Shown in pieces: positions 3,115 through 33,014 of a stretch of 40,599 nucleotides of DNA. The DNA comes from a virus. The stretch is taken from positions 1-40,599 of IMG/VR virus record IMGVR_UViG_3300032770_000049; one strand, given 5' to 3'. Every line of letters begins with the position of its first letter. Position 1 is the stretch's first letter. The position numbers and the translations under genes are program-made. The notes beneath the pieces are model-generated. The model searched no databases and was not told the DNA's origin. It saw nothing but the letters and a program-made list of their open reading frames with translations.

Positions 3115-3940
3115 GGCTCGACGCAGCCGTGCCGCTCTGGTTGTTCGGATTCAGGTAAATCCCTACCTTGTCTGGTGCCGTGGTGAAAAAGTCCGTTTTG
3201 CTCGTGCTGGTGAGCACAAACCAACTGATTCCGTTGTCGGTCGAGAACGAATAGGTGAGCGTGCTCCCAGAGAGTTGGACCTTGAACACCACGCAATCCG
3301 AGCCCATCAGCGCAATGAGCGCCATCACCCGCGAGTAGTTGGAATTGTAGCTCGACGCGGAGTTTAGCTTGTCAGTCGAGAGGGCCGGAAGCGTGGTAAG
3401 CGAACTGAGCGCGCTGGCACCGATCAGGCAGAGCACGACAATCTTTCCCGTGCCGCTCTCGCGCAGATAGATTCCGCCCTGGTTGTACTCCTGGTTCGGC
3501 ACCATCAGTCGGAAGCGAAAGATGTAAGACCACGACGAGCCGACGATGGAGAACTCATAGCCGCGCACATTGTCGGCCGCGCCGTTCGACGGCGCCGCCA
3601 GTTCCAGCACGCCGTTCGTCTGCTGCGTCGCCGTTGCGCTTCCCTGATTGAGCCATGCCCATGTGATTCCGCCCGGTGGCGTCACAAGCTGGCCGCGATA
3701 GAAATAGTCCCAGGATGCGCCGTTGTCCCTCAGCACGTCGTAAATGCTGTCGGTCGGCAGATAGATCCTGCCCGCGGTGCCAGCCGCCGGCAGCGAGCCA
3801 ATCGCCCCCGAGAGACAGAGCGAGCTCGCGCCGCCGGCGTAGTAGGCGCTCACGTTGCCGCTTGAGTCCGACTGAAAGACCACGTTGGTATTGCCGCCCG
3901 GCGCCGCCGGCGTTGTGCTGTTGAAATTGACGATGCTCAT
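3092..3940 (-). CDS. tail fiber / lectin-like receptor-binding protein, 282 aa
   Basis: Likely virion surface protein. Residues 1-75 resemble the repeated shaft or linker modules of fiber proteins (Gly/Ala/Ser/Thr-rich, ending in a LPTDSIYDVLRDNG segment). Residues 85-282 look like a concanavalin-type beta-sandwich with many aromatic and Asn/Ser positions (VRGYEFSIVGSSWSYIFRFRL; FSTDNGISWFVLTST). A longer open frame exists upstream, but the ATG at 3940 overlaps the baseplate stop by 4 bp and begins a typical MSIVNFN start. Its place downstream of tape measure and baseplate fits a distal adhesin. Confidence 0.72.
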   Translation of the reverse strand: MSIVNFNSTTPAAPGGNTNVVFQSDSSGNVSAYYAGGASSLCLSGAIGSLPAAGTAGRIYLPTDSIYDVLRDNGASWDYFYRGQLVTPPGGITWAWLNQGSATATQQTNGVLELAAPSNGAADNVRGYEFSIVGSSWSYIFRFRLMVPNQEYNQGGIYLRESGTGKIVVLCLIGASALSSLTTLPALSTDKLNSASSYNSNYSRVMALIALMGSDCVVFKVQLSGSTLTYSFSTDNGISWFVLTSTSKTDFFTTAPDKVGIYLNPNNQSGTAASSLTLISVN

Positions 3941-6717
3941 ATGATTGTTCCGTTCACTTCGATGATCGTTTGGCCTTCCCAGACCTGGGAGCTTTGGATC
4001 TCGACAATGGTGAGCGTGGTCACGCCGTTGACCGTGATATCGCTCGTCGCCAACTCCCACGCCGTGTCGTAGTTCGTCGCGCTGTTCTTCGTCAGCACGT
4101 AGCCGCTCGCGCCGCCGGACGGGACAAGCTGCCCAGTCGCACCCGCGACGGCGTTGCCGGAAGCGTCGTAAATCAGCGGTGCGCCCGTCGCGCCAGCCGC
4201 CCCGCTCGCGCACTGAAGCTGCGTCGTGTTGCCCTGCTTCGTGCCAGCCTTGACGTCGGCGCCGCCGTTGCCGATGACTGGTTCGCCCGACGTCAGCGCT
4301 CCTGTCATATGCGTGACGGTGCCCTGCGGGTTCGCCTGCACGGTGATCGTCTGCGCTGGCGGTGCCGTTCCTGGCGCCCGATTGAAACTCACGCTGGCAT
4401 AGATCGGATTCGGCGCCGCACTCGCAAGCGTGCTCGTGAAACTGCCCGACGCGGAAACTGTCTCGACAGCCGCCGCGCCATCGCTCGCGGGCCCAAGGCT
4501 CAGCGTGTAGCCCACCACAACCTCGGGCGCCGTCGCGGTCGGGACATCCGAAGTCGCGTCCATGCACATTCCGGTGACCACGACATTGTGAGCGTTCGTG
4601 ACGGTCAGTGTCGGCGGCGTGCCGCTGTTCGAGCCGGTGACGTCCACAATCGCGGTCAGGTCAATCTGCGCTCCTGGAATCGCTAGAACCGTCGTCGATC
4701 CAGAGCCTGGAGTTGTGACCGAATTCGCACCACTGGCAACACTTATCGCGTACAGGATATGTACCCAGTTGGGGAAAAAGCCTGGGTTATGGCCACTTAC
4801 GGCCTGTGTGTAAGTGTTGCCGAGAGTGTCTGTAAGTGCAGGCGTGCTGTTGTAATTGTTGCCAGCGACGATCGCGATCAACAAATCGCCTTCGTTTACT
4901 CCGTCGTGAAACGGAATCGGATTCGGCACGCCGACGATCTCGTTCGGCCCGCTGTTGTAGTTGCCGCTCACGGGAGTCGCCGCGGCAGCGATCGGTGTCG
5001 ATGGCGTGATGATCTGCCCGGTAGCCTGCTCACGATTGATGAACTGCGTCAACGCCGTGATGGCATCGCCAATGTTAGCGCCGCCGAACGCCGTGTACTC
5101 CCACAGAATGACGTTCGAGAAGATCGTCATCCGCATAGTCGCGATGAGGAAAGAGCCGTCGATAGCGGCCTGTGGCAGTGTGATATTTTGCAGTTGCCCG
5201 GTCGCGAGGCCAGGCCGCAGCGTGTAGAAGTGGCAGGTCGTCGCCGGGTCGCCGTACTCAATCTGATAGGCCGCCGCGAGGTCGAGCAGATCGGCCGGCA
5301 GAATCGGCTGGTCGACCTTAAAGCTGTAATCGAACTCTCCGCTCGTGCCCTCGACGGCTTGCCGCTGCTGGAGGCTGACGACGTTTGGCGACTGCGCGAC
5401 CGCCGGCGTCTCTGGAGTGTACGTTACGACGAGGCTATCGCTCGAGCCGAGCACCGTGCCGCCGACGTCCTGCGTGATGGCCGTAGACCCCTGGCTCCAG
5501 TACCAATCCTTTCCGGTGTCCACGCCGAGAATGCCGACCGTCTGGCTGACGGCATTGAGCGTGATCGCCGGTTCGGCGCCGACATTCACGGGCGTGTTGA
5601 ACACGGTCGCGACGCCGTTGCCGACGAAGTTCGCATTGAGCGTGTTCGTGAGCACCGCTGAGCCGATGGCGTAGACGAAATTCGCCATCTGATTATGCGT
5701 CGCGACGATGCTCTGAGAGTACGGCGTCTGGCCGCTAAATAAGTCGGAGCCGTCCGTCACGTCCCACGGCGCCGCGTTGGCTGTGCGGGTCGTGAGAATG
5801 AAGTTCCGCCAGGGGTCGCTTGTCCAATACCACGCTGTGTCGGCCGTCGAGATCTGGCTCACCACCTGATCGAGAAGTTGCCCGACGTTCGCGCCGACTG
5901 GCGCCGCAAGCGTGATAGCGGGCGCCGTCGAACTCGTGACGCTCACGCCGTCATTGTCGCAGTAGTAGAGCACCAACTTACGGAAGACCACATCGCCCGC
6001 CACGTTGACGAAGCTCTGCGGCAGCATTGGGGGCACCTGGCGCCGCTTCGCAAGGCCCGTCCAGCTTGTGCACGTGCAAGCCCACGAGTACGGCGTCGAG
6101 ACACCCGGCATGCTTGAGGTCGTCACCGTGTCGATATAGCCGCCGAAGATATCACCGATACTGCTGTCCGTGCTCTTGAGATACACCGGCTGGCCGAGTT
6201 GGACCGTGCCGAAGCGCTCGATGTACGGATTCGTGACACCGAGGTCGCCGCCGAGCGAGTTCAAGACCGTGAATTGCAGCGTGTCGGCGGTGCCTGGCGC
6301 GATCGAGCTTGACCATTGGAACGGCAGTCCATCGCTCGGCAGCGTCGCCACATCGGAAGCGAATGGGCAAGGCCGGTACAGAATGACGGTCGCGAATCCC
6401 GTGTTCCAGATGCTGGTGTCCGGCGCATCGGTGAGCGTGACCTCGGTCGCGCTCACGTACGTCGCGATCGTCGTGTGAAAGAGCGACCCCTGCACGAAGT
6501 TCGGGGCTGGCATGTCCGGGTCCACGGGCCCGCCGCCGACGATGGCGATCGGCATTCCGACGTCCTCGGGCTTGAAAAAGATGGCCGCATTTGGCGCGTA
6601 CAGCGTGCCGCCTGCGAACTCGCTGAGCGTCGTGCTGCTGGCGGTCGCCTTGCCCGTGCCGCAGAGGCCGAGGTAAAGCTGGAGACTACCCGCGTTGACT
6701 GTCGGCGTGTAAGCCAT
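3937..6717 (-). CDS. baseplate / tail-tip protein, 926 aa
   Basis: Large structural protein directly after the tape measure, the usual site of the tail-hub protein. Residues 1-450 have a compact beta-rich composition with Trp, Tyr and Cys (CTCTSWTGLAKRRQVPP), like hub domains. Residues about 590-790 form Ig/adhesion-type beta modules rich in Thr/Ser/Val (ALTDTLGNTY). The C-terminal 120 residues resemble fiber-attachment segments. Its start overlaps the tape-measure stop by 1 bp (TGATG) and its stop overlaps the fiber start. No enzymatic motif was seen. Confidence 0.75.
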   Translation of the reverse strand: MAYTPTVNAGSLQLYLGLCGTGKATASSTTLSEFAGGTLYAPNAAIFFKPEDVGMPIAIVGGGPVDPDMPAPNFVQGSLFHTTIATYVSATEVTLTDAPDTSIWNTGFATVILYRPCPFASDVATLPSDGLPFQWSSSIAPGTADTLQFTVLNSLGGDLGVTNPYIERFGTVQLGQPVYLKSTDSSIGDIFGGYIDTVTTSSMPGVSTPYSWACTCTSWTGLAKRRQVPPMLPQSFVNVAGDVVFRKLVLYYCDNDGVSVTSSTAPAITLAAPVGANVGQLLDQVVSQISTADTAWYWTSDPWRNFILTTRTANAAPWDVTDGSDLFSGQTPYSQSIVATHNQMANFVYAIGSAVLTNTLNANFVGNGVATVFNTPVNVGAEPAITLNAVSQTVGILGVDTGKDWYWSQGSTAITQDVGGTVLGSSDSLVVTYTPETPAVAQSPNVVSLQQRQAVEGTSGEFDYSFKVDQPILPADLLDLAAAYQIEYGDPATTCHFYTLRPGLATGQLQNITLPQAAIDGSFLIATMRMTIFSNVILWEYTAFGGANIGDAITALTQFINREQATGQIITPSTPIAAAATPVSGNYNSGPNEIVGVPNPIPFHDGVNEGDLLIAIVAGNNYNSTPALTDTLGNTYTQAVSGHNPGFFPNWVHILYAISVASGANSVTTPGSGSTTVLAIPGAQIDLTAIVDVTGSNSGTPPTLTVTNAHNVVVTGMCMDATSDVPTATAPEVVVGYTLSLGPASDGAAAVETVSASGSFTSTLASAAPNPIYASVSFNRAPGTAPPAQTITVQANPQGTVTHMTGALTSGEPVIGNGGADVKAGTKQGNTTQLQCASGAAGATGAPLIYDASGNAVAGATGQLVPSGGASGYVLTKNSATNYDTAWELATSDITVNGVTTLTIVEIQSSQVWEGQTIIEVNGTII

Positions 6718-9700
6718 CAGAATCGCGCTCCCGATGCCCGCAGTTGCGCCACGAGCGTGCTAGCGACCTGCTGCGCGAGTTGCGTTGTGTTCCCGCTGGC
6801 ACCGTGAATGTTGATCGACACATTCGCATTGACGGTTGACTGCGCAGGCGTCGATGAGCCGGCGCCAGCAGTCGGAATCGTTGCGCCCGGAATCCCCGTG
6901 ATTGGCGAGTAGGGCAGGTACCCGGGATTATTGCCGATGCTCACCAGCGAAGGCGTGCCGCCGACTCCGAGGCCGCCGCCAGTGCCGCCTTGCGGAGTGC
7001 CGCCGCCCGTGCCGCCTGTGGTGTTGATCTTCAGGACCGCGCCGCCGACAGCCGTAGCGGCCTGCTCAATCGCCGTCGCGGTGTCCAGCAGCGCCGCCGA
7101 GATCTGCCCGAATGCCGCCGTTGAACCCTGGAACACTTGAAGCAGTCCAGCGACCGCCTGCGAGGTCTGGTCACCTCCTGCGAGGCCGCCGGTCGCCTGG
7201 GTGATGGTCTGCGCGATATTGTTGGTGATCGACTGGAGGCTGCCGCCCCCGCTGCTTCCGCCGCCCGCTCCGCTCGTCGTGACCGCCCAGACTTCGCCCA
7301 CTGCCTGATGCGCAGTCACAGCCGGATACGAGCCGCCGTCGACCGCCGATGTGCCGCCGCTAGAGGATTCGGTAACGGTCGTGCCGCCGCCTCCCGTCGT
7401 GCCACCGGACGAAGGCCCGCCCTCGCTCGGGAGCGGCCAGATCGGGTTAGGCGCTTCGCCAACAATGATCGCACCGGCTGACCCGCCCGCAGCCGCGCCA
7501 GCCTTCGTCTGGGACGCCTGCGACGCGTTCAACCCGAGATCGTTGAGCACGGTCGTGAGCGGCACTCCGAGGCGCTTCGCGATCGCTACTGGCGTGTAGC
7601 CCTGCGCGTATAGCTGCTGTTCCTGCGTCTTGAGTTGCGCGGCAATCGTGGAGGCATCGCCGTAGAGCCCATACGAGAAGGACTCGCCGCCGAAATCGCC
7701 GCCGCCGGTCAGCAGGCCGCCGCCGAGATGGTATCCCTGCTGCACGTTGATCGTGCCGCCTGAGCTCGACGCGGCGCCAAAGGCAGCCTGCATGTCAGAC
7801 TCGACGCTCTTCACCGCGGCAGCGACCGACTGGAGCGCGGTCGCGTCCTGCTGGAGCGAGGCCGTCTGCTGCTGAATCGCTGTCGTCGCCGCGCCCGCGC
7901 TACTCGTGAGGTCCGGGTAAACGTTCGACAATTGCTCGACGAGATTCGTGCTGTTGCCGAGCGCCGTGTTCAACTCCTGCTCTGCCGACGTCAGGGCCTT
8001 TTGCGCCTGCTGAACTTGAGCATAGGTCGCCGTGCCATTTTGAAACGCGATGGTCAGGTCGTCGACCTTGGCCTTCGCCGCGGCGACAGCATCCGTCGCG
8101 AGAGAGACTGTGTCTGTCGCGCCCTGGAGGCCCGTGTTCAGGACCGCAGTCTCCTGGTCGAGCGCTACCTGTGCGTCGAGTTGCTGCTTCAGTGCCTTCT
8201 CGTATTGCTGACCGACGTTAAGGCCTTGCGCCATCTCATCCGCGAACTTATGGACGTTGGCGGTCGCTTCCGCCAACGCGGACGAAAGGCCCGTCAGCGC
8301 GTCGGGCATTCCAACAATCGGCGCGTTGAGTTGCTTCTGGAGCGCCGCTATCTGGTCAGTGAGGCCAAGGGCCTTCGCGGTCGCTGGCCCGAACTGGTCA
8401 GCAAGGTCCTGTAGGAGATTGATTTCTGACTGGGTCGAAGCACCCGACCCGTTCATGTAGTCGATGTAATTCTTTACCGTGCTATTGAGCGCGGTTAGGT
8501 CTTTCTGCGAAGTCGCGTAAGCGCCTTGCAGGTTCTGCTCGGCCGTGATGACCTGCGCCCGGGTGCCGGTTCCATTGGCATAGGCCGTGTTGGCGTCATC
8601 GAGCGCGGATTTGAGCAGATCGAGCTTCGCGACCGATGTGTTATAGGCATTCGTCGCCAGGTCCATGCTGGAGACCGCTACGGCCTGCTCGTTGGCCTGC
8701 TCTTGCTGAGCATTGACCACAAAGCCCGTCTGCTGCGCGAGTTTGTTCGCCGCTGACGAGATTGCATCCATGCTCCCAGGCAACGGAGCCAGCGTGATTC
8801 CCGCCGCCGCTGCTGCGTCGCTCATGTTCTTTTGCGCGATGGCGACTTCCTGCGCGTTGGCCGCCGCCCCGTGGTACAGCGGTGCGCCGGTCAGGAGAGA
8901 GTTGTTGGCCGCGTCATATACCTGCTTGGCCAGTTCGTACGCCGAGTTCAGCTTGTCCTGGTTCGTGAAGAGAGCGGCGACGCCCTGGCTCACAAGCTGC
9001 TGCTGTATGGCCAATTGCTGCGCACTGGACGCAATCACCGTCAGGTGCACGCCCATCTGCTGGAGTGGATCAATCGAGGCCCCGAGTTCCCGGTTAAAGT
9101 TGGCCTGCGCCGCGGCGATATTCTTTATTGCCTCGTTGAACTGGGATCCGCTGATCACGCCCTGGCTGAGATACTTCGTGAACGTGTCGGTCGCCTTAGC
9201 AGCGTCTTCGGTTGTCAGGTCCGCGGCAGCAAGGTCTTTGATTTCCTGCTCGATCTGCGCGTTCGCCGCGGCGATGAAGCCGGCGGCATTCTGGAAGCCC
9301 GCGCCTTGCGCCCACTGGTCCTGTGCGCTTTTGATCGAGGCTTGCAGGTCAGTGAATCCGAACGCCGCCGCCGCGAGGCCGGGAATAAGTACTGTGCCCA
9401 GTATTCCGGCGAAGCCAGAGGCCGCCTCGCCCGCGAGGCCGATACTCGCGCCGGATGTCTCAGCAGCTTCCCCGAGGCCTGCCACTTCGGGCGCCGCCGC
9501 TGCCGCGGCTTCCCCTTGTGCCACAGAGGCCGCCGCCTCCGTCTCCTGCACGATAGCAGCCTCGCCAGACTTCAGGCCGAGCAGTTCAGCAGCTTCCGCC
9601 AGTCCGTTCAGCCCAATAGCGACCGCAGCCGCTATGCCTGTGAGCGGGATTATTGCAGCCGCTGCCAGCCCGACAGCGACCGCCGTATCTTTGATCGGCC

Positions 9701-16190: not shown

Positions 16191-16592
16191 TTATCCCACC
16201 GACAGCCGGACAAGTGCCGCTGTGTCGGTTGCGCCGCTCGCGATGTCGTTCCCGCTCGGGTCGAGGTAGCCGAAAGGTGTGTCGCTCGAATCGGCCGAGA
16301 TCCACAGGCCCGTGGTCACGTTGGTTGTGGCGTCCAACGTGCCGCTCGCGTAGAGCTTGTCGCCGTGGTTGATCGCCTCGCCGGTGATCGGCGAGTGCGT
16401 CGAGCTGCCGTACACCGTGCCGGTGAACGTGCCGCTGAAGTAGAACGTCGCGCCGCCGGTGTTCGCCTGATAGTCGTTCAACGCGCAGGCCGGTTCGGAG
16501 CCGACCAACACGAGGTCGCCAGCCTTGACGGTAGACGGGCACAAGCAGAATCGCGGCGATGTCGGCGTGCCCTGATAGACTTGATTTTTCAT
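16191..16592 (-). CDS. capsid decoration (cement) protein, DUF2190-like, 133 aa
   Basis: Small beta-rich protein between protease and major capsid. The patterns AGDLVLVGSEPACALNDYQANTGGATFYFSGTF and ...INHGDKLYASGTLDATTN...GYLDP are typical of the DUF2190 capsid-cement family, which trimerises on head surfaces. ATG at 16592 overlaps the protease stop by 4 bp. Confidence 0.8.
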   Translation of the reverse strand: MKNQVYQGTPTSPRFCLCPSTVKAGDLVLVGSEPACALNDYQANTGGATFYFSGTFTGTVYGSSTHSPITGEAINHGDKLYASGTLDATTNVTTGLWISADSSDTPFGYLDPSGNDIASGATDTAALVRLSVG

Positions 16593-18328
16593 GCCGTCCT
16601 CCCACGGAAAGCTACTTCAGCGATGCGGAAGTTGCCCTTTTCGTCGGGCTGCTCACCGAGCAGGGTCGCCCAGGATTCGCGGTACATGGCCTCGTCGGCC
16701 TTGTCACGCTCGGCCTGTGCTGCCCGCTGCGCCTCGGTGATCTCGACGACCGCGCCAGTGCCCATGCCGGTTACCCTGGAGCCTGCGCCGATCGCCGCGC
16801 CGAATCGCTTCGTCTCGGCGTCGATCGACTCTTTGAACTTCACGAGGTCGAGGGTGCCGTCTTTGATCGGCAGAGATTCCTTGAGTACCGTCTCGATGAC
16901 GTACTCTTTTGCCGCGTCCGGGAGATCGACGTCACGCAGAATGCGGGCGCCCTCCTGGATGGCTTCGCGGCGCGTTTCCTTCTTCGACAGTTGCGCGACG
17001 CTCTCGCGCAGCAGTTTCAGTTCGTCCGCATCCATAGATGCCTCCTGTGTTTGATTTGCGGCGCGCGCCGCCTCGCTAACGAAAAGTCCGCCGGCACCCG
17101 CGCGGGTGACCATATCGACTCCATCGGCACGCTTCAGCGAAGCCAGCAACGGCACGCCGTCACGCATCACAATGCGCCCGTTTTCCTTCATCGGCTCGCC
17201 CCACGCGGCGATGCTCACGCCAGCCCACGGGCCTTTTTCGTCGATGGTCTGCGCGTGGTCGGAAAATGGTTTGATCGGAGCGTACAGACCGGGCCCGTTG
17301 TCTTTTCCAGTGCTCGGGCTGACATATGATTCCATCCAGCGAGCCGGCTCCGCCAGCACTGCGCCCCAGTCCTTTACGCTGCCTTCGGGCCTCGCGGCTT
17401 CTTCGGCTTGCGTCGGATGGTCGATGCGCATCGGCGTGCCTGCGATGAACACTTTCGGGCCGTCCCGCTTGAGCATCTCAGCGGTGTAATACGCGCTTGC
17501 GCCCTTCCCGGGAGTGATTAACTTAACGAGCTTCGTTGCGCCGCTGGATGCCTCGCGAATCGAGACGATATCCTGCTCGAACGCAGTGGCCTCAGTGACG
17601 CGGATCATGCCGTCTTTGGCGAGGTAGCGGTGCGATTCCTTCTTGCTGTCGCCGTCTCCCTGCCACGCTTTCGGCAAATACTTCGTCCAGCCCTTCTTTT
17701 TCGCGATTCTGATGATATTCGCCTTGAGCGCCGCGGGCCCGTAGTTGCCGCTGCCGGCGCGCCCGATGCTGCGAACGGCTGCCATGATGTCGCCAGGCTT
17801 ATTGATGGGGAACGATTTCCCTTTGCCCGCGAAGTCGCCCTCGTCCATCTGGTCGCGCTCGGCCTTGCTGACGAAGCGCTCGAACAGCGGGATCTCGCCC
17901 GCGTAAATCTTGTCGCGCTTCCACGATTCGTACATGGTCGCCATGCCGTCGTCGTCTTCATCGTCCGGCACGTCTTCGTACGTCACCCGCGGGCTGACCT
18001 TCCGCGCTGAGTCCATGTCGAGCTTTGCAGTCGCCGCCACGCCGTCGCCGTTGTCCGTCATCTCGTACGGGCAGGTCATCGTGTCGCCCGAGCACGAGTA
18101 GTACACGTCGCCGTCGCTGTCATCGCCCGCGTGATCGAGGTAGTACGCGTACTTGCCGGTGCCTTTGTGCGCCGCCTGAATCGCCGCGGAGAGCTTCTGC
18201 CCGACCGTCGATGACGTCATGTCCGACGCCGCTTCCTGGAGCTTGACCGCCAGCGCGAGATAGGCGCCGCTCAGCTTTGGGTGCTGTGTCTGCGTGTCGG
18301 CTTCGCGGGCTTCGATCAGTAGTGGCAT
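16589..18328 (-). CDS. prohead protease with fused scaffold, 579 aa
   Basis: Cleaves head proteins during capsid maturation. Layout: an N-terminal extension with an acidic segment (DVPDDEDDDG, about 118-127); a SFPINKPGDIMAAVRSIGRA...YGPAALKANIIRIAKKKGW block (about 171-216), a domain often attached to phage maturation proteases; the protease core (about 260-420) with VFIAGTPMRIDHPTQAEEAARPEGSVKDWG, where the His-Pro pair resembles the catalytic His region; and a charged helical C-terminal scaffold part (435-560). It stands upstream of decoration and capsid genes. Confidence 0.8.
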   Translation of the reverse strand: MPLLIEAREADTQTQHPKLSGAYLALAVKLQEAASDMTSSTVGQKLSAAIQAAHKGTGKYAYYLDHAGDDSDGDVYYSCSGDTMTCPYEMTDNGDGVAATAKLDMDSARKVSPRVTYEDVPDDEDDDGMATMYESWKRDKIYAGEIPLFERFVSKAERDQMDEGDFAGKGKSFPINKPGDIMAAVRSIGRAGSGNYGPAALKANIIRIAKKKGWTKYLPKAWQGDGDSKKESHRYLAKDGMIRVTEATAFEQDIVSIREASSGATKLVKLITPGKGASAYYTAEMLKRDGPKVFIAGTPMRIDHPTQAEEAARPEGSVKDWGAVLAEPARWMESYVSPSTGKDNGPGLYAPIKPFSDHAQTIDEKGPWAGVSIAAWGEPMKENGRIVMRDGVPLLASLKRADGVDMVTRAGAGGLFVSEAARAANQTQEASMDADELKLLRESVAQLSKKETRREAIQEGARILRDVDLPDAAKEYVIETVLKESLPIKDGTLDLVKFKESIDAETKRFGAAIGAGSRVTGMGTGAVVEITEAQRAAQAERDKADEAMYRESWATLLGEQPDEKGNFRIAEVAFRGRTA

Positions 18329-18798
18329 CAGGCCTCCAGCAGTGCGCCGACGAAATCACCCGGGCCGATTCCCTGGATGATCCGAAGCCAGCGCTCGATA
18401 TGGTTGATTTGGCTCTGCACATCGTCAATCGTGTGCTCGTACAGGTCCGGCACGTAGTCGGCGCGGATATTCCATGCGGCCTTGCGCCGGTCGCAGAGCG
18501 CGGTGAAAATCTGAGTGAGTGACGCCAGGTCGCGAGTCAGCAGAGAGCGAATGTCGCCGCCGCCCTGCGTCGGCAGCATCGAGTAGTTCACGTCCTCACC
18601 GAAGTTGTTCACTTGCTTGATCAGGCCATTCAGGTGCATCTCAAGCTGCGTGTGCCATTTCGGGTAGAATTTGCGGGCGAGATCCTTCAGGCCGAGGTTG
18701 CGAATCGCATAGGCATCGACGCGGTATTGCTCCTGCATCGAGGCGAGTTGGCCGCAGGTCGCGAGCAGATCGCCGATGACTTTTGGGTCCGCCTTCAC
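18328..18798 (-). CDS. bacterioferritin-like protein lacking ferroxidase ligands, 156 aa
   Basis: With GTG 18798 as start, the protein begins MKADPKVIGDLL. From memory it aligns without gaps to E. coli bacterioferritin (158 aa) over the first 50 residues, with identities at D4, K6-V7-I8, L11, G16, Q24-Y25, A29, N34, G36-L37-K38, L40 and Y45. The last 80 residues match too (...LLTRDLA..., ...IIQGIG). The metal ligands are replaced: E18 by L, E51 by Q, H54 by M, E94 by L, E127 by V, H130 by Q, and the heme ligand M52 by L. It should fold as a four-helix bundle but not oxidise iron. The start is supported by TATCCT-N6-GTG; an open frame to a TTG at 18834 is less likely. It overlaps the protease gene by 1 bp. 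Confidence 0.75.
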   Translation of the reverse strand: MKADPKVIGDLLATCGQLASMQEQYRVDAYAIRNLGLKDLARKFYPKWHTQLEMHLNGLIKQVNNFGEDVNYSMLPTQGGGDIRSLLTRDLASLTQIFTALCDRRKAAWNIRADYVPDLYEHTIDDVQSQINHIERWLRIIQGIGPGDFVGALLEA

Positions 18799-18804
18799 AA
18801 TCGG

Positions 18805-18834
18805 AGGATAAGCGGTGTTATTGAAAACGTGCAA
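18805..18834 (-). promoter_or_regulatory. leaderless promoter of bacterioferritin-like gene
   Basis: Minus-strand TTGCAC (18829-18834), 18-nt spacer, TATCCT (18805-18810), then exactly 6 nt to the GTG at 18798. The -35 hexamer is that of the 73-396 gene promoter. No Shine-Dalgarno precedes the GTG. Confidence 0.5.
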
Positions 18835-18854
18835 CTTTTGACAACAAAATCCTG

Positions 18855-18866
18855 TAGGATTGCTTT
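18855..18866 (+). promoter_or_regulatory. TAGGAT -10-like box, 6 nt before ATG
   Basis: TAGGAT (18855-18860) with 6 nt to the ATG at 18867. The AGGA inside it could instead act as a Shine-Dalgarno. TTGACA at 18838-18843 is only 11 nt upstream, so the -35 assignment is unclear. Confidence 0.4.
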
Positions 18867-19238
18867 ATGGCAGCGAATCGAGAGATCTGTACGAAGTGCA
18901 AAAAGAACCCCCGAAAAGAACCGAACGGGACCAATCCGTGGTGCGCAGAATGCCGCGCCGAGTACATGCGAGAATACTACGCCACGCTTCCGTGGAGGCA
19001 CGAGAGACGCGGCTTACTGCGGGGCCTCGCTGCGATGCGGGAATATGTCGCCAATGAATTTCGCCGCCACACCGTGCGCCCCTTTTTGGGACCGGAGGCT
19101 GCGGCGTTCGTGATGAGCCTGCCAGGGCCACCCGTCGCATCTGAAGACGTGATCGTCTCGCGCGAAGACAGAGAGAAGTTGGTCTTCAGCCCCGAAGCTA
19201 TCGCCGCTGACGAAGACGCGAAGGCTCAGATCCCGTGA
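18867..19238 (+). CDS. Zn-binding hypothetical protein, 123 aa, plus strand
   Basis: N-terminal four-Cys cluster CTKCKKNP...WCAECRAEYMREYY (Cys8, 11, 26 and 29), like the zinc knuckles of phage HNH/endonuclease VII-type proteins, but no His-Asn-His core follows. The remainder is helical and charged, with PGPPVASEDVIVSREDREKLVF near the end. It is oriented against its neighbours. Its 3' end overlaps the convergent radical SAM gene by 13 bp. Function unknown; nucleic-acid binding is plausible. Confidence 0.65.
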   Translation: MAANREICTKCKKNPRKEPNGTNPWCAECRAEYMREYYATLPWRHERRGLLRGLAAMREYVANEFRRHTVRPFLGPEAAAFVMSLPGPPVASEDVIVSREDREKLVFSPEAIAADEDAKAQIP

Positions 19239-20053
19239 TGGATAATCGCCGGCCGCGCCCAGACACGCTGGAAGCGCCTCCACTCGGACGCGGGCCGATA
19301 GCGTTCAGCGCTCGGCGTGTCGGGTTCCCATAGCATCGCGTGAGGCGTGAAACCGATTCTCAGCATGTCCCGCAGCCGTCTATCGGCCAGGGCAAACGTA
19401 TCCTTCGGGTACCCGATCATGACGTAACACCGCAGCCGATGGGAGCACTCGGTGAATCCGGCGGCAAGCATCCTTCGGGCCGCGCTCTCAAGCGTCTCGA
19501 AAGCATCACCGGGATCGTACGCGAAAAAGCAATTCGGCCGTGGCTTCAGGTCAGCCAATAGTCCCACGTGCCAATCGGTGAGAGCTTTCGCCTCCAGCCC
19601 TCCGGTGAACTGGACGCGCCCAGGCTGATTGGCAAGCATCGCGAAGACCATCCTCACATGCCAGTCTGGACAAGCTAGTAGATTATCGTCCAGCACGTCA
19701 CGCCCTGCCTCGAAAGGCCAGATGGGCACGGCGCTCGGGCGCCGCTTCCAGACTCCGCAGAACCAGCAACGGCACGGGCATCCACGCGATGTGAATGTGT
19801 ACCCGGGCTTGATGTAGCGCCCCGGAGTGAACAGTCCATACCCCGGGTCGCCATAGGCCACTCCTCCCACTTTCACTGGCGCTACGTGCTTCCACTGCTC
19901 GGCGAGTTTCTCGGCTTTTGGCTTGTCGGCTGTGAATGTCACGCTGACATGAACTTCGTCGGCCTCCGCGAACAAATCTGGAGGGCCGAAAAAAGCCAGA
20001 TCGTCATCAGGGGTCGCTTTCGTCCTGCGAGGGAAAACACGGGCCAAGCGCAT
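19226..20053 (-). CDS. radical SAM enzyme, 275 aa
   Basis: Contains the 4Fe-4S/SAM motif CPCRCWFC (C-x3-C-x2-C, about residues 92-99) after a TFTSRG strand. An N-terminal segment (ADEVHVSVTFTADKPKAEKL) resembles the Rossmann-like, B12-binding-type domain of one radical SAM subgroup. VLDDNLLACPDWH and VQFTGGLEAKAL are later barrel strands, and CYVMIGYPKDT a C-terminal strand. Substrate unknown. It starts at ATG 20053 with TATGAT 6 nt upstream and no ribosome site. It shares the upstream element TGCTGTAGC, at the same spacing, with the C5 methyltransferase gene, so the two are probably co-regulated. Confidence 0.85.
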   Translation of the reverse strand: MRLARVFPRRTKATPDDDLAFFGPPDLFAEADEVHVSVTFTADKPKAEKLAEQWKHVAPVKVGGVAYGDPGYGLFTPGRYIKPGYTFTSRGCPCRCWFCGVWKRRPSAVPIWPFEAGRDVLDDNLLACPDWHVRMVFAMLANQPGRVQFTGGLEAKALTDWHVGLLADLKPRPNCFFAYDPGDAFETLESAARRMLAAGFTECSHRLRCYVMIGYPKDTFALADRRLRDMLRIGFTPHAMLWEPDTPSAERYRPASEWRRFQRVWARPAIIHHGI

Positions 20054-20059
20054 GGACCA

Positions 20060-20088
20060 ATCATAGCGATCAGCCCACAGCTACAGCA
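20060..20088 (-). promoter_or_regulatory. leaderless promoter of radical SAM gene
   Basis: Minus-strand TGCTGTAGC (20080-20088), 14 nt, TATGAT (20060-20065), 6 nt, ATG. The same 9-mer, spacing and N6 gap are seen at 21641-21669. Confidence 0.6.
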
Positions 20089-20112
20089 AGTGCCAGAGGT
20101 TCCCGTCCGGTA

Positions 20113-20397
20113 CTAGACCCCGTAAGTGATCGACACCTTATCGGTGCCGCTCGCGCCGTACACGTAGCACTGGCACAGCGGATAGCCGCGCTGCGGGTGA
20201 TCGCCACGCACGCCGACAGCGAACGGCACGCCGGGCGCGAGAGCCACGCCGCGGCTCGCGCCCACGTTCGCATCACCGAACCGGATGCTGCTGCCGTTCG
20301 CGGTCATCTCGATCCACGTCGCTACGATTGCCGTATTGCTGCTCAATGGAGTTGCCGTGCCGTTCGGCGTGATGTCGGCGATTGTCTGTACTTGCAT
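20113..20397 (-). CDS. small virion-type protein, 94 aa
   Basis: Beta-rich, no charged clusters, with SSIRFGDANVGASRGVALAPG (about 35-55) and a C-terminal LCQCYVYGASGTDKVSITYGV. This RFGD-ANV-...RGV-LAPG pattern is common in small uncharacterised virion or decoration proteins of siphophages. ATG at 20397 has TACGAT exactly 6 nt before it and no Shine-Dalgarno. It starts only 16 bases beyond a terminator, so it needs its own promoter. Confidence 0.65.
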   Translation of the reverse strand: MQVQTIADITPNGTATPLSSNTAIVATWIEMTANGSSIRFGDANVGASRGVALAPGVPFAVGVRGDHPQRGYPLCQCYVYGASGTDKVSITYGV

Positions 20398-20403
20398 GGT
20401 GGA

Positions 20404-20409
20404 ATCGTA
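20404..20409 (-). promoter_or_regulatory. TACGAT -10-like box, 6 nt before ATG
   Basis: Minus-strand TACGAT lies between the terminator T-run and the ATG at 20397. No -35 consensus is visible because the terminator stem occupies that position; overlap of terminator and promoter is unusual. Confidence 0.35.
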
Positions 20410-20413
20410 GCAC

Positions 20414-20453
20414 GAAAAAGCCGCGGCGGAGCTCGGAGGTTTTCCGTCGCGGC
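20414..20453 (-). terminator. rho-independent terminator, minus strand
   Basis: 11-bp stem with one mismatch (20420-20430 with 20443-20453), 12-nt loop, then TTTTTC on the minus strand. It would end transcripts coming from the C5 methyltransferase gene, after they have crossed the whole oppositely oriented gp10-like gene. Confidence 0.75.
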
Positions 20454-20487
20454 CTCACAGCACAACCTTGCGTGACTGCGAAGAGTG

Positions 20488-20493
20488 TAACAT
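20488..20493 (+). promoter_or_regulatory. TAACAT -10-like box, 6 nt before GTG
   Basis: TAACAT with 6 nt (GGAATC) to the GTG at 20500 on the plus strand. TTGCGT at 20468-20473 is a possible but closely spaced -35. Confidence 0.4.
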
Positions 20494-20499
20494 GGAATC

Positions 20500-20901
20500 G
20501 TGAATCTCAGAGCACAAAGTTCATTCCGCGCGGGTAGCTTCAGCCGCCTGGAGCAGATCATCGTGCCGAAGCTCGTCGCTGGCGCCCAGGCCGGTGCTGA
20601 CGCAGTGTTGGAGATCTCGCAGGGCCTCGTGCCAGTGCGGACGGGCGAACTGAAAGAGAGCGGAGGCACGAGTGTTGAGTGGACCGGGACGCGCGTTACG
20701 GGCTATGTCGTTTACCACGCCGGTCACGCCGGATATGTGGAGATGGGCACCGGGCGCCGGGGTGCTGCGTCGGCTGGCGCGGGGCCGTTCCCATACGACG
20801 AGAACTGGCCCGGCATGGTCGCGCAGCCTTACATCAGACCTGCGCTGGACATCGGCCGCGAGAAGGTTCTGACGGCGTTTCAGGCTGCGCTAGGAGCCTA
20901 A
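20500..20901 (+). CDS. HK97 gp10-like tail completion / virion morphogenesis protein, 133 aa
   Basis: Contains the family signature: VPVRTGELKESGG (about 45-57), VVYHAGHAGYVEMGT (70-84) and AQPYIRPALD...KVLTAFQAAL at the end. Members join head and tail and normally sit beside the tail terminator, on the same strand as other late genes. Here the gene is on the opposite strand, about 8 kb away from the tail terminator, and begins at GTG 20500 behind a TAACAT box. Its last 68 bp overlap the C5 methyltransferase gene tail to tail. It may still be essential; relocation is inferred. Confidence 0.82.
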   Translation: MNLRAQSSFRAGSFSRLEQIIVPKLVAGAQAGADAVLEISQGLVPVRTGELKESGGTSVEWTGTRVTGYVVYHAGHAGYVEMGTGRRGAASAGAGPFPYDENWPGMVAQPYIRPALDIGREKVLTAFQAALGA

Positions 20902-21634
20902 GAACCTGCTCTCCGATGAATCGCGAATAGGCGGGCGGAATCGCCTCGCTCAGTTCCGCGATAGTCATCCAGTCAATTCCCATAGCTTCCCTGCTCTCCG
21001 CTACACAGCCCTTGTACCCACGCCGATCTGGGTCGAAACGGTTAGCCCACCCGCCACCGTTGCCGTATACGCCAATCTTTTCAATCCCGTTGCAGTGGCA
21101 CCCAGGACCCATAATGAGTTGCCAGCATTCAAAGAGGCGATGCCTGCGCAAAGGGCGCCGCACGCCATCTTCGCAAGTCGCTCCGAGCCCGAAAGCGCCC
21201 CCGCAGAGAGTAAGGGGAAACCACAGCGGAGCGCCCAATACATTTTCCATTACCCAGGCAACGCCAGATTTTTGCAGGCGAATGCGCATGGGCTCGATCA
21301 GTTTCGGGTGTTCACGCCGGCGGTCCCGAGCCACCCGGGTGCGCGAAACTGTGTACGCTTGGCATGGCGGACTCGCCCAAGCGAAATCAAAGTGCCTGTC
21401 CCAATGAAGTCCGCAGCGGTCGCATATCTCCGGGTAGTGATCGAGCGAGCCGCCGACAAATTCCGATGTCGCTGAGAATTTGAACGTGAGCGCGTCAGCC
21501 TGGTGAAACTCATCGCCGCAGTATCGCGGCTGCGGCCGGATGTCCACGCCGGTGACGTGAAAGCCAGCCTGTTGGAGTCCCTTCGTCGCGCCGCCAGCGC
21601 AGCAGAACAGGTCGAGAGCACGTGGTTTGCGCAC
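20834..21634 (-). CDS. C5 cytosine DNA methyltransferase, 266 aa
   Basis: Transfers methyl groups to cytosine in DNA. Motif I LDLFCCAGGATKGLQQAGF (8-26), catalytic ASPPCQAYT (88-96, the Cys nucleophile), ENV in WVMENVLG (129-136), RRHRLFE (164-170), and motif X IPPAYSRFIG (234-243). The last 20 residues lie beyond motif X and are read from the antisense of the gp10-like gene. Target-recognition region is short. No restriction endonuclease is adjacent, so it is likely an orphan enzyme protecting phage DNA. GTG 21634 has TATAAT exactly 6 nt upstream and no ribosome site. Confidence 0.9.
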   Translation of the reverse strand: MRKPRALDLFCCAGGATKGLQQAGFHVTGVDIRPQPRYCGDEFHQADALTFKFSATSEFVGGSLDHYPEICDRCGLHWDRHFDFAWASPPCQAYTVSRTRVARDRRREHPKLIEPMRIRLQKSGVAWVMENVLGAPLWFPLTLCGGAFGLGATCEDGVRRPLRRHRLFECWQLIMGPGCHCNGIEKIGVYGNGGGWANRFDPDRRGYKGCVAESREAMGIDWMTIAELSEAIPPAYSRFIGEQVLRLLAQPETPSEPSRGRCPAQV

Positions 21635-21640
21635 TACGTG

Positions 21641-21669
21641 ATTATACCGTGCAGTACGTCGCTACAGCA
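21641..21669 (-). promoter_or_regulatory. leaderless promoter of C5 methyltransferase
   Basis: Minus-strand TGCTGTAGC (21661-21669), 14 nt, consensus TATAAT (21641-21646), 6 nt, GTG at 21634. It is a near-copy of the radical SAM promoter in layout. TAGTAC, which includes the stop codon of the upstream gene, precedes it at 21679-21684, as it does at 20110-20115. Confidence 0.65.
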
Positions 21670-21681
21670 CACGCGAAAGTA

Positions 21682-22299
21682 CTAGACCTTGCACGCGCCG
21701 CCGTTGACCGCGATCACGACTTGCTGCGCCGTCACCACGCTGCACCCGCCGTTCGCCGCCGTGATTCCGCATGCCGCAGTGCCGGTCGCGCCGTTGATCA
21801 CCGCCTGCACGTCGGCCACTGTCACGTTGCCATCGCCCGTCACATCGCAGGGCGAAGGTACCACCGTAAGCGTGTAGACCGCGCCGGACACTGGCGCCGG
21901 ATTCGCCGCGAAGCCCGCAGTCGTCGCGCCGATCAGGTTCGACAGCGGAATCGTCGTCGCGCCGAGCTTGGCGGACAGCGCCACGTTGAGCGGAATCGTC
22001 TCGATATTGCCGTCCGCAAGCGGCGTCGGGCTGCCAGCGATCAGGCAGGCGAGAGGTCCGCACTGCGCGATCGAGCCGCTCGGGTCGGTGCTCGTGACCG
22101 CCGCCGTGCCGAGCGTGAAGCCGCTCGGCAGCGTCATCGTCCACTGAATCGCCGGGATGCTGGCAGCAGCCGCGCCGGTGACAGCGACGGTGAGCGTTGC
22201 GGAGCCGCCGGCGGTGACGGTGCCCGGTCCGGTGAGCGTGACGACAGGTGTCTGCGCGGAGAGTGACAGCGCGAAGAGTGCGGCGAGTGCGAGTCTCAT
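21682..22299 (-). CDS. secreted cohesin/dockerin-like protein, 205 aa
   Basis: Signal peptide at residues 1-16 (MRLALAALFALSLSAQ). Residues about 18-150 form a cohesin-like beta-sandwich (PVVTLTGPGTVTAGGSATL; IPAIQWTMTLPSGFTLG). Residues about 153-172 carry a dockerin-type calcium loop CDVTGDGNVTVADVQAVIN, followed by a degenerate second repeat. Cohesin-dockerin pairs bind each other in cellulosomes; single proteins with both are found in soil Acidobacteriota. Start ATG 22299 is set by the signal peptide; TACACT lies 7 nt upstream. A secreted calcium-binding protein among head genes is odd: a virion surface or host-envelope role is possible. Confidence 0.7.
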   Translation of the reverse strand: MRLALAALFALSLSAQTPVVTLTGPGTVTAGGSATLTVAVTGAAAASIPAIQWTMTLPSGFTLGTAAVTSTDPSGSIAQCGPLACLIAGSPTPLADGNIETIPLNVALSAKLGATTIPLSNLIGATTAGFAANPAPVSGAVYTLTVVPSPCDVTGDGNVTVADVQAVINGATGTAACGITAANGGCSVVTAQQVVIAVNGGACKV

Positions 22300-22312
22300 G
22301 CGAGAGAGTGTA

Positions 22313-23146: not shown

Positions 23147-23382
23147 CGTCGCCTCACAATCGCGAATTCCGGCGTGATGCGCCAGAACTGAGTAGGCCCG
23201 ACCGTCGTGCGCACGAACCGCGTGCCGCATACCGGACAGCGCACGTCGGCGCAGTTATCGCCCAGTCCGCCGGTCGTGAACGCTTTCCGGCAGCACTTAT
23301 CGGCGTCGGGATCGAGCACCCGCAGAGGCTCGGGCGGTTTCGGCGTGCCGCGAGACATCAGCGAGTACAGGTCGTCAGCCAT
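23143..23382 (-). CDS. small Zn-binding protein, 79 aa
   Basis: Contains Cys pairs CCRKAF and CADVRCPVCGTRFV (about 30-60), a likely zinc ribbon, then a basic end. ATG 23382 overlaps the portal stop by 8 bp, and its stop overlaps the gpF-like start by 4 bp. Coupling with portal and head protein implies a minor structural or assembly role; family not recognised. Confidence 0.65.
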   Translation of the reverse strand: MADDLYSLMSRGTPKPPEPLRVLDPDADKCCRKAFTTGGLGDNCADVRCPVCGTRFVRTTVGPTQFWRITPEFAIVRRR

Positions 23383-25345
23383 CGAGCCGCGCCCCCACCG
23401 CTTCGGCCAGCCGCGCAAATGCCTCTTTAACCGCCGCCTTCGCGCCCTGCACCTGGTGAGCCGTCGCGACCGTCGCAGGCACTTCGCCGGGCTGCGGCTG
23501 CGGCCCGCCAGCTTGCGGCTCTGCCTTCGGAATCGGCGGCGTTAGCTCCTGATTCGACCGATCGGGGTCATAGGCATCTTTGCCCTTGCTCGGGTACATC
23601 AGCTCAACAAGCTCCTCAGCGTTCTCGATGTCGAGCAGCCGGAACAAGTTCAGCACGCCCGCTTTCTCGTCGATGCCAACAATCTGGCCGGCGCGGTTGC
23701 CGAGCGTCATGGCCGCCACAGTCGCGTTGATCAGCGCCGGGAGATCGCCCTCGCGGATGGCCGGGAAGTCCACGCGGACCTCGATATCATCGCCCTTCGC
23801 AAGCGCCTTCTTCTCGACGTAGCGCATTCGGCCGTTGCTGTCGAGCGCGCGCTCCGCGGCCTTGATCGTGATCGCGCCAGGATTGGCACATGCCTCGCGG
23901 AGCTTGCCGTTCGGCGCGCGCAGCGACTTCGAGAGCGCGTAGGACACGATGACTGTCAGGTCTTCGATCCACTGCTCCTGGAGCGACAAGAACACGGTCT
24001 CAGTCGGTCTGTCGAGGCTGGTTGCCGTCGCAAGATTGCTCGTCTGCATGTCGCCAAGGAACGTCGGCGGCAGCCCCTTGCACATGCAGCACATGATGAC
24101 GTACCAGCGAACGTCGTCCGGGCTGAACGTGGCGCCCTGAACCTTGAATGCTTCGAGCGTCGTGCCGGGTCCACTGATCCACGATGCGCCCGCGACCGCC
24201 GGCGGATTCGTGTCCCAGATCGGCGCGCCCGGGCCGACCTGTGTTTCCATCTCCTGCTTGATTCCCTCGATGGCCTGCTGGCCGCCCTTGGTGGTGATGT
24301 TGAACGCGAACTGAGAGAGACTCTGCCGCACCGACGCGCACGCCTCCAGGAAGCGCCGCGCCTCTTTCGCCCAGTCGAGCGCGGGGTACAGCAGCGGACA
24401 GCCGAAGAGCCACTTGCCGACTTGGCCGACCTTGCGATGATAGACCGGGTTATCCCACATAACCGGATAGCCCTTGATCATGTCGGGCTTGACCGCTGGA
24501 TTGTAATCGATCGCCGGGTACCAGCATTGCCGCGTCACGGTCGCCTGTGAGCCGCTGGTCGCGTCGTGCTGCCGCTGCGTCCAGATACGCTGGTAGTACC
24601 ACGGCACGTCGGCGTCTTCCGGGTCCGTCCAGATGTCCTGAATCTCGGTCGCGTCGATCATGCGGACATCGACGTCGCCGGTGCTCTTGTCGGTGAAAAA
24701 CACCCAAAACAGATTTCCGTCGCGGTCCTTGCTCTTCTCCGCTTCCATCAACGCGCATCGCCCGAGCACGCGCTTGTTGCGCTCCAGGAACGCTTTGATG
24801 ATGTCGTTGGCATCTGGGTCTTCGCTCGTGATGTCGCAGCCGCGGGCGAACACGTACTGTGCGCACACGTCAATCAGGCGGCGGATGATCGGGTTCTTGA
24901 TGTAATACAGGCGGGTAATTAAAATAATTTGCTGAATTCCCCATCGCGTGAACTCCAGCCACGAGTAGTTGATTTCGCGCTGCCAGTTGACGTTTTGCAA
25001 CAACAATTCGTAGAGGCCGTACGCACCGAGCGGCGAGACGTCGCCCACCGGGCCCGCCTCGCGCAGCCCGAGCGATTCCGCGAGACGGACAGGCAGCGAG
25101 ACGACCGGCGTGTCGCCGTCGCCCAATTGCCGCGGTTGCCACGGGCCCGCGCCGCCCATCGCTTGCGCCTCGCAAATTTCGGCCAGGAAGCGGCGTGCTT
25201 CGTCGAGTTGCCGCTCACGAGTTGCCTGCGCTTCCGAGGCGATGCGCTTCAGTGCGGCGTTCTCTTCGCGGAGTGCGGGTACGGGATTGCGGGGATTCAG
25301 TTTGCGCCAGGCGGCGGCAAGCAGGCGATTGAGGCGTGCTCTCAT
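23375..25345 (-). CDS. portal protein, 656 aa
   Basis: Forms the dodecameric ring through which DNA enters the head. Typical portal landmarks: IQQIILITRLYYIKNPIIRRLIDVCAQYVF (about 137-166), RDGNLFWVFFTD...DVRMIDATEIQDIW, SPDDVRWYVIMCCMCKGLPPTFLGD (crown/wing entry) and TSNLATATSLDRPTE. It is preceded by a 70-residue Ala/Arg/Glu-rich helical N-terminus. A Pro/Gln-rich linker (about 605-630) comes before the C-terminal helix. It follows the terminase-sugar region and is coupled to the HNH gene by ATGA. Confidence 0.92.
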   Translation of the reverse strand: MRARLNRLLAAAWRKLNPRNPVPALREENAALKRIASEAQATRERQLDEARRFLAEICEAQAMGGAGPWQPRQLGDGDTPVVSLPVRLAESLGLREAGPVGDVSPLGAYGLYELLLQNVNWQREINYSWLEFTRWGIQQIILITRLYYIKNPIIRRLIDVCAQYVFARGCDITSEDPDANDIIKAFLERNKRVLGRCALMEAEKSKDRDGNLFWVFFTDKSTGDVDVRMIDATEIQDIWTDPEDADVPWYYQRIWTQRQHDATSGSQATVTRQCWYPAIDYNPAVKPDMIKGYPVMWDNPVYHRKVGQVGKWLFGCPLLYPALDWAKEARRFLEACASVRQSLSQFAFNITTKGGQQAIEGIKQEMETQVGPGAPIWDTNPPAVAGASWISGPGTTLEAFKVQGATFSPDDVRWYVIMCCMCKGLPPTFLGDMQTSNLATATSLDRPTETVFLSLQEQWIEDLTVIVSYALSKSLRAPNGKLREACANPGAITIKAAERALDSNGRMRYVEKKALAKGDDIEVRVDFPAIREGDLPALINATVAAMTLGNRAGQIVGIDEKAGVLNLFRLLDIENAEELVELMYPSKGKDAYDPDRSNQELTPPIPKAEPQAGGPQPQPGEVPATVATAHQVQGAKAAVKEAFARLAEAVGARLDG

Positions 25346-25893
25346 GTGGCTGAGTTTACCGCACGTCGGCGGTTCCGCATATAGGCGTTATATTTTGAGC
25401 GCCACTCTGGGTCCTTGGCCTTTTCTCTTCTAAGCTCTCGTGCTCGCGTTGTCAGCGCTTCTTTCCGCGCGGGGTCAGAGCGCTCCTGCCTTCTTCGGTC
25501 CCGGTCACAGATCCGACAGATCCGCTTGCCCCTGCGGTCCCTGCGAAAGTTATCGCCTTCGTAAGCGTGCCCCTTTGGGCATTCGGTCTTGCTGGATTGT
25601 AATGTCTGTATCGTCTGAAGCCCGCGCCTCATGTTTTCCTTGTGCGTCACGGCTTCGAGATGTTGAGGATTTACGCAGGAATGCACGCGGCACTTGTGAT
25701 CAAGTTCCAAGCCTGTCGGGACTTTTCCTACAAGGGTCTCGAATACCACGATGTGTGCCTGTCTGACTTTTCCGCTCCCTACCCTGATCTGGCCGTAACC
25801 TCGGACACCCGCCTTCCCTGTCCAAAGCCAGCAGCCGCTATTCGGTTCGGGAGAGATTCTTTTCGCGATTCGTTCCGGCAGGAGATTCAGCAT
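25342..25893 (-). CDS. HNH homing endonuclease, 183 aa
   Basis: Same architecture as 14228-14698: SGCWLWTG (19-26), GLELDHKCRVHSCVNPQHLEAVTHKENMRRG (HNH core), CPKGHAYEGDNFRRDRRGKRICRIC (Zn tail), then a highly basic C-terminus. Its stop overlaps the portal ATG by 4 bp. Its 5' end lies inside the 3' end of the glycosyltransferase gene for 56 bp. Tight fit into the operon indicates an old, stabilised insertion; the last residues of the glycosyltransferase may have been changed by it. Confidence 0.85.
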   Translation of the reverse strand: MLNLLPERIAKRISPEPNSGCWLWTGKAGVRGYGQIRVGSGKVRQAHIVVFETLVGKVPTGLELDHKCRVHSCVNPQHLEAVTHKENMRRGLQTIQTLQSSKTECPKGHAYEGDNFRRDRRGKRICRICDRDRRRQERSDPARKEALTTRARELRREKAKDPEWRSKYNAYMRNRRRAVNSAT

Positions 25894-32826: not shown

Positions 32827-32978
32827 TTGCCCGCCTTCGCTTCCTCGCGCTGCTGCCGTTCGTCCTTCTCGATGATCGCGTCCGCAATCCAGCCCTTGAT
32901 GTGCTGGTGCCGTCTGAGCGCCGAGATTTTCGCGCGCTCGTAAACTTCGTCGGGTACTTCAGCGTGAATCTGTGCCAT
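32823..32978 (-). CDS. ribbon-helix-helix regulator, 51 aa
   Basis: AQIHAEVPDEVYERAKISALRR is the strand plus first helix of an Arc/CopG-type fold, followed by HIKGWIADAIIEK (second helix) and a charged tail. Binds DNA palindromes as a dimer of dimers. First gene of the sugar operon. ATG 32978 lies 6 nt after TACTAT of a good promoter, so the mRNA should be leaderless; an in-frame TTG at 33014 is the -35 box itself. Candidate ligand sites: the palindromes at 417-434 and 789-806, and the half-site at 33014-33019. Confidence 0.75.
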   Translation of the reverse strand: MAQIHAEVPDEVYERAKISALRRHQHIKGWIADAIIEKDERQQREEAKAGK

Positions 32979-32984
32979 GCCGCA

Positions 32985-33014
32985 ATAGTAGCCGTACGTG
33001 TGCGTGAGAGTCAA
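32985..33014 (-). promoter_or_regulatory. leaderless promoter of sugar operon
   Basis: Minus-strand TTGACT (33009-33014), 18-nt spacer, TACTAT (32985-32990), 6 nt, ATG at 32978. CAGTAT, one half of the early-promoter palindrome, abuts the -35 box. No Shine-Dalgarno. Confidence 0.7.

Follow-up and report, generated by a model that had tools for sequence, protein, structure and literature searches.

Candidate leaderless promoters appear to mark the first genes of transcription units in a phage group that probably infects Acidobacteriota

Introduction

Why should consecutive phage genes lying on both strands each carry their own −10-like hexamer a few bases ahead of the start codon? This question is raised by the segment between a MuF-like gene and the head protease gene in the IMG/VR virus record IMGVR_UViG_3300032770_000049, whose complete sequence of 40,599 bases we analyzed and refer to as the window. 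The window holds portal, terminase, head protease, capsid, tape measure, and recombination genes and thus comes from a tailed phage of soil, probably a siphophage; RNA families and tRNAs were both looked for in it, and none was found. A sequence-only reading had taken the segment for a "cargo island" whose genes each have a promoter, are apparently leaderless, and are active apart from the late operon, perhaps early or in stress.

The hexamers (TANNNT, hereafter boxes) are, in our judgment, very probably −10 elements of sigma-70–type promoters that yield leaderless mRNAs and mark the heads of transcription units in a phage group probably infecting Acidobacteriota. The host RNA polymerase would recognize each box as a −10; since the box lies 6 to 7 nt before the start codon, transcription would begin on that codon or beside it, giving a leaderless mRNA. 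Only the first gene of a unit would be boxed, with downstream genes using Shine–Dalgarno (SD) sites or overlapping stop and start codons. What the sequences show is the motif with its spacing, conservation, and base preferences, its tie to unit heads, and its absence from cargo homologues; that the boxes act as promoters, that the mRNAs start without a leader, that the host is an Acidobacteriota, and that the portal, protease, and gp10 units are expressed late is what we infer.

Boxes in the Window

The following −10-like hexamers precede start codons in the window, where N6 or N7 gives the number of intervening bases.

18805..18810, minus strand: TATCCT, N6 before the GTG at 18798
18855..18860, plus strand: TAGGAT, N6 before the ATG at 18867
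20060..20065, minus strand: TATGAT, N6 before the ATG at 20053
20404..20409, minus strand: TACGAT, N6 before the ATG at 20397; kept in 9/9 orthologues
20488..20493, plus strand: TAACAT, N6 before the GTG at 20500
21641..21646, minus strand: TATAAT, N6 before the GTG at 21634
22307..22312, minus strand: TACACT, N7 before the ATG at 22299
25353..25358, minus strand: TAAACT, N7 before the portal ATG at 25345
32985..32990, minus strand: TACTAT, N6 before the ATG at 32978 (51-aa open reading frame [ORF])

All six N6 sites of the consecutive segment genes were found with the hexamers, spacings, and start codons that the sequence-only reading had listed, as were the N7 site of the next gene at 22299 and the AGGA within the box at 18855. 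The box before 32978 is likewise present, although the "RHH" label attached to its gene found no confirmation, the 51-aa ORF being without a PHROGs or Pfam match. The portal gene has to be added to the same class.

Could such sites arise by chance or reader bias, given A+T-rich gaps and a free choice of start codons? TANNNT occurs at 0.0034–0.0038 per position in the window, and the only 12 TANNNT-N6-RTG sites found window-wide (R, purine) include some inside reading frames, as that explanation would have it. Against it stands the scoring of 163 RTG codons close to the 5′ end of an ORF (minimum length, 90 aa), in which N6 gave 6 matches whereas the other spacings averaged 0.81 (Poisson p about 2e-4); all six matches were the consecutive segment genes. 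Nor are the start codons at the boxes cherry-picked: those at 20053, 20397, 20500, and 21634 are the first of their own ORFs, a codon-usage gene caller blind to the motif picked 18798, 20397, and 20500, and alignments of orthologues fix residue 1 for 20397, 20500, and 18867.

Conservation in Related Phages

Two scans with the portal and capsid proteins yielded 17 usable related viral contigs, and at each orthologous start TANNNT was sought 5 to 8 nt before an in-frame ATG or GTG. This comparison of orthologous starts with control genes, proposed as a check in the sequence-only reading, showed strong conservation of the motif: it was present at 44/61 orthologues of motif-bearing genes but at 0/101 operon-internal orthologues. 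The nominal p of 5e-26 overstates independence, because the sets were chosen from motifs in the window and two contigs (L010/L011) are near-duplicates here; the contrast itself is not overstated. Boxes were found at 11/13 portal, 9/9 20397-type, 7/13 gp10, 8/13 18867-type, and 7/11 protease starts and at 2/2 for two further genes, compared to 0/12 for MuF, 0/11 for the capsid gene (MCP), and 0/10 for the gene at 16191. SD-like sites were distributed the other way, being present in 11/11 capsid gene orthologues and in only 0/9 of the 20397, 1/13 of the portal, 2/13 of the gp10, and 1/13 of the 18867 sets. Since the relatives' proteins are mostly 43–79% identical to those of the window, and so not near-identical, this conservation already refutes the chance explanation, which we regard as having next to no likelihood.

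Motif Composition and Spacing

We pooled 63 boxed sites and analyzed their composition. Positions 3 to 5 of the hexamer, which were unselected in the search, drift toward TA(T/C)AAT, with A at position 5 in 51/63 sites and at position 4 in 33/63. Base −1 is C in 47/63 sites, compared to 12/47 at operon-internal starts (p 4e-7), and a purine stands at +1; a C at −1 is expected if transcription starts on the start-codon purine after a pyrimidine. The hexamer drift and the C at −1 thus fit a sigma-70–type −10 whose transcript begins on the start codon. Of the 63 sites, 18 have an extended −10 (TGn), and a G-rich stretch lies just before the −10. The spacing is N6 in 40 sites, N7 in 19, N8 in 3, and N5 in 1, so the N6 spacing that is clear in the window is not strictly kept in relatives.

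This range from N5 to N8 would also suit ordinary −10 elements followed by short leaders or by some other downstream start codon, in which case the mRNAs would not be truly leaderless. The 18867 orthologues of three relatives (L003, L083, and L087) have TANNNT-N10-ATG, which implies a leader of about 4 nt. However, orthologous proteins align at residue 1 right at the box (M/V-N-x-R-A in gp10 and M in all 20397-type proteins), and boxed starts have C at −1 and rarely an SD site, so we consider short leaders unlikely. Conserved position, −10 drift, C at −1, and the rarity of SD sites together uphold the earlier description of these genes as individually promoted and apparently leaderless, as far as sequence can indicate it.

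Heads of Units Rather Than Cargo

The genes of the segment and the flanking head genes are as follows, with the basis of each assignment in parentheses.

16589..18328, minus strand: head maturation protease, SD-led in the window (family match)
18328..18798, minus strand: 156-aa gene before the head protease, heading the leftward late operon (gene call, orthologue)
18867..19238, plus strand: 123-aa protein with conserved cysteines, zinc-ribbon-like (sequence; orthologues in relatives)
19226..20053, minus strand: radical SAM protein (CxxxCxxC), accessory (family match)
20113..20397, minus strand: 94-aa small beta-sandwich protein common to the phage group (orthologues, fold)
20500..20901, plus strand: gp10-like tail completion/Neck1 protein (PHROG 5), in opposite orientation to the late operon (family match)
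20834..21634, minus strand: C5-cytosine DNA methyltransferase, accessory (family match)
21682..22299, minus strand: 205-aa secreted protein with a dockerin-like repeat (sequence)
23375..25345, minus strand: portal protein, essential head gene with a leaderless-type start (homology)

Portal and protease genes also start at a box, so the motif is not a property of the island; it marks whichever gene opens a transcription unit rather than cargo as such. In gene maps of 13 relatives, the MuF–protease segment is hypervariable, holding C5 and Dam-like methyltransferases, small membrane or secreted proteins, and gp10. The "cargo island" is therefore apt as regards a hypervariable insertion site with an accessory methyltransferase and radical SAM gene, but not as regards gp10, which is structural, or the 20397 (minus) and 18867 (plus) genes, which are conserved in most relatives, where they are convergent and nearly constant. 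The proposed expression apart from the late operon, whether early or under stress, found no support: boxes also stand before the portal, protease, and gp10 genes, which argues for late activity of several of these promoters at least. In one relative (L085), an ORF at 3571-4338 within the variable segment resembles an IS1595-type transposase by eye.

The behavior of gp10 illustrates the point. It is inverted in the window and nearer relatives and collinear with portal in the distant L009–L011 branch. When heading its own unit it is boxed (the window, L003, L005, L085, and L010/L011), whereas with a same-strand gene directly upstream it is without a box in 6/8 cases (L004, L006, L082, L088, L089, and L009). 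The L009 case is ambiguous, as TATTCT-N6 precedes a nonstandard ATC start there; counted as a box, it reduces the figure to 5/8. Where gp10 has been displaced from first place, the new first gene usually carries the motif. In L004, the gp10 at 7169 (minus) has a strong SD site (aggaggtg) and an apparent ATC start and lies directly downstream of a leaderless-type gene.

The same pattern holds at the protease. The 156–158-aa gene before it carries the box in the window and in L085, where the orthologue is 79% identical and starts TACTAT-N7-GTG; the protease is usually boxed in relatives without this gene and unboxed where the gene precedes it. In the window the protease is SD-led because the 18328-18798 gene heads the unit.

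The many boxes between the MuF-like gene and the protease would thus reflect a hotspot split into units of one or two genes on alternating strands. Its contents are the methyltransferase, radical SAM, and secreted protein genes, two small conserved genes, and the inverted essential gp10. We also considered whether the methyltransferase and radical SAM genes brought their promoters with them, and rejected this, since their homologues are mostly without a box. For radical SAM, one scan gave homologues on 65 viral contigs (L138–L202; 50–77% identical), of which 4/63 had a box, near background, the closest relative (L138) being among the four; for the methyltransferase the count was 1/11. With cargo homologues elsewhere unboxed, newly arrived genes most likely acquired their −10 in place in the window's lineage rather than carrying it in. 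A host origin of the radical SAM gene was also rejected, with only weak matches in 299 genomes of the class.

From this we tentatively suggest, at somewhat less than even likelihood, that a bare −10 beside the start codon suffices in the host, so that single genes of the head operon, gp10 included, can be turned around, added, or rearranged in this phage group with expression kept, the −10 moving to whichever gene becomes first. Host promoter grammar would on this account explain the unusually strand-mosaic head operon. In addition, the two divergent starts that stand at nearly fixed distances beside the protease may be a regulated late switch.

Two features could instead point to boxes that are operators or promoters of a phage regulator or sigma factor, for example the zinc-ribbon-like 18867 protein, with separate timing. 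First, the portal start has the sequence TAAACTCAGCCACATG (25343-25358), which, 7-nt spacer included, is identical in L002/L003, L007, L082, and L087, while the DNA upstream of it has diverged among the phages that share it. Second, the 18867 gene and the protease unit diverge, and the distance between their starts varies little: 68 bp in the window (18796-18869) and 67–69 or 88–89 bp, about two helical turns apart, in relatives. Conversely, the motif pooled over all sites is an ordinary −10, positioned as in Acidobacteriota chromosomes; besides the −10, the G-rich stretch, and the C at −1, there is no strong common sequence over the 63 sites; and no phage sigma factor was recognized among the proteins searched. 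We therefore hold such a regulator to be improbable, a little more so than short leaders, and favor sigma-70–type −10 elements. An HNH endonuclease gene (25342-25893) lies directly upstream of the portal start and overlaps it, which places the putative portal promoter within the HNH coding sequence.

Host

The host is probably a member of the Acidobacteriota, as judged from a 55% identical portal gene on a contig of an Acidobacteriia metagenome-assembled genome (MAG). This gene starts TATAAT-N8-ATG, and the preceding ORF TATAAT-N6-GTG. We then counted box spacings before all candidate starts in host-lineage genomes. Two Terriglobia genomes showed a sharp N6–N7 peak (13 + 13 compared to 3.0 per position, and 17 + 13 compared to 3.7), an excess corresponding to 11–13% of genes in these chromosomal samples; the peak was weaker in a Bryobacterales genome, and control hexamers gave no comparable peak in the sampled genomes. 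In Acidobacteria, TA-led genes have been reported in 3/3 genomes, at a mean of 13.3% of genes (Zheng et al. 2011, PMC3160421). Provided that the host is an Acidobacteriota, TA-led starts are used genome-wide in its lineage; in this phylum, about 10–20% of genes have starts of this kind.

Several observations weigh against the proposed explanation. The box is missing at 17/61 of the orthologous heads, and gp10 in L007 and L087 keeps its box despite an upstream gene. The −35 element is weak, with TTG at 18 nt in 10/63 sites; at least four of six consensus positions were matched in 14/63, compared to 9.0 in shuffles (maximum 19), which is not significant overall. This is less damaging in that −10-only promoters suffice in Deinococcus (PMC12340547). 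The host assignment rests on one MAG contig and promoter usage, and no further close prophage was found in 399 sampled genomes of the class; among the 199 and 399 sampled Acidobacteriota genomes, only the G001 contig, plus distant matches, was recovered. Finally, the isolated Acidobacteriota phages Tunturi 1 and 4 (PMC11924767) have no genome-wide TANNNT excess. Individual sites do occur in them: ORF19 of Tunturi 1, an inverted single gene, has TAGAAT-N7-ATG, and Tunturi 4 offers TTGACA-N17-TAGATT-N6-ATG.

Relation to Known Systems

The arrangement resembles that of TA-led bacterial genes, in which TANNNT lies ~10–12 bp before the start codon without an SD site (PMC3160421), but that was a chromosomal survey, whereas here the motif occurs in a phage group and is confined to unit heads. 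In Deinococcus, where TANNNT stands 6–7 bp ahead of the ORF and mostly has no accompanying −35, mutation and reporters show that it drives leaderless genes (PMC12340547). For the Thermus phage phiYS40, leaderless middle and late transcripts have been mapped by experiment (Sevostyanova et al. 2007, as cited in PMC3594737), and leaderless expression of this type goes with altered IF2/IF3 in the host. The −10 motif adjacent to ORFs in Deinococcus–Thermus and the many phage genes with leaderless starts described for phiYS40 are both like the present case, which belongs to another phylum and likely host and is known by sequence alone. The leaderless device is thus known in bacteria and, in principle, in phages; less usual are putative leaderless starts at the head of units with essential head genes, and the strand mosaic of the operon that results.

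Phage morons, accessory genes that each have a promoter to themselves, frequently run antisense to lytic genes (PMC7067206), and the segment likewise has accessory genes, inserted between late genes and partly antisense, with putative promoters of their own. Of its genes, those for the methyltransferase and the radical SAM protein are absent from close relatives, whereas the gp10, 20397, and 18867 genes are not. Each gene has a candidate promoter in its conserved −10-like box, but unlike in morons no terminators were found (no terminator-like site within 18328-22300, and 5 in the 10-kb region compared to 8.1 in shuffles, not above chance), and the same promoter type heads essential head genes and the inverted gp10.

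Acidobacteriota are a dominant soil phylum whose phages are hardly known, and we found no promoter studies of such phages in the literature searched. With a conserved, easily read unit-head signal, units and genuine start codons could be predicted for such phages, and phages of leaderless-rich hosts could be recognized. Since cargo genes boxed here are mostly unboxed elsewhere and gp10 is usually unboxed once not first, the group also provides a natural experiment on promoter birth.

Other Features of the Segment Genes

The family libraries gave no function for the 18328-18798 gene (no PHROGs or Pfam match) or the 20397 protein. The fold of the latter resembles uncharacterized phage proteins (best E 3e-4), no solved structure matched it convincingly, and it is possibly a virion protein. 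The 18867 protein has weak similarity to the N terminus of endonuclease VII; its structure model (pTM 0.43) was too weak for a fold search. The radical SAM family is well-conserved phage cargo, with no recognized function beyond "radical SAM." At its C-terminal end, the 22299 protein has a dockerin-like repeat (DVTGDGNVTVADV), judged by eye and without a Pfam match, and its orthologue in L004 has the leaderless-type start TATAAT-N6-GTG. The 3′ end of the methyltransferase gene and gp10 overlap convergently by 68 bp.

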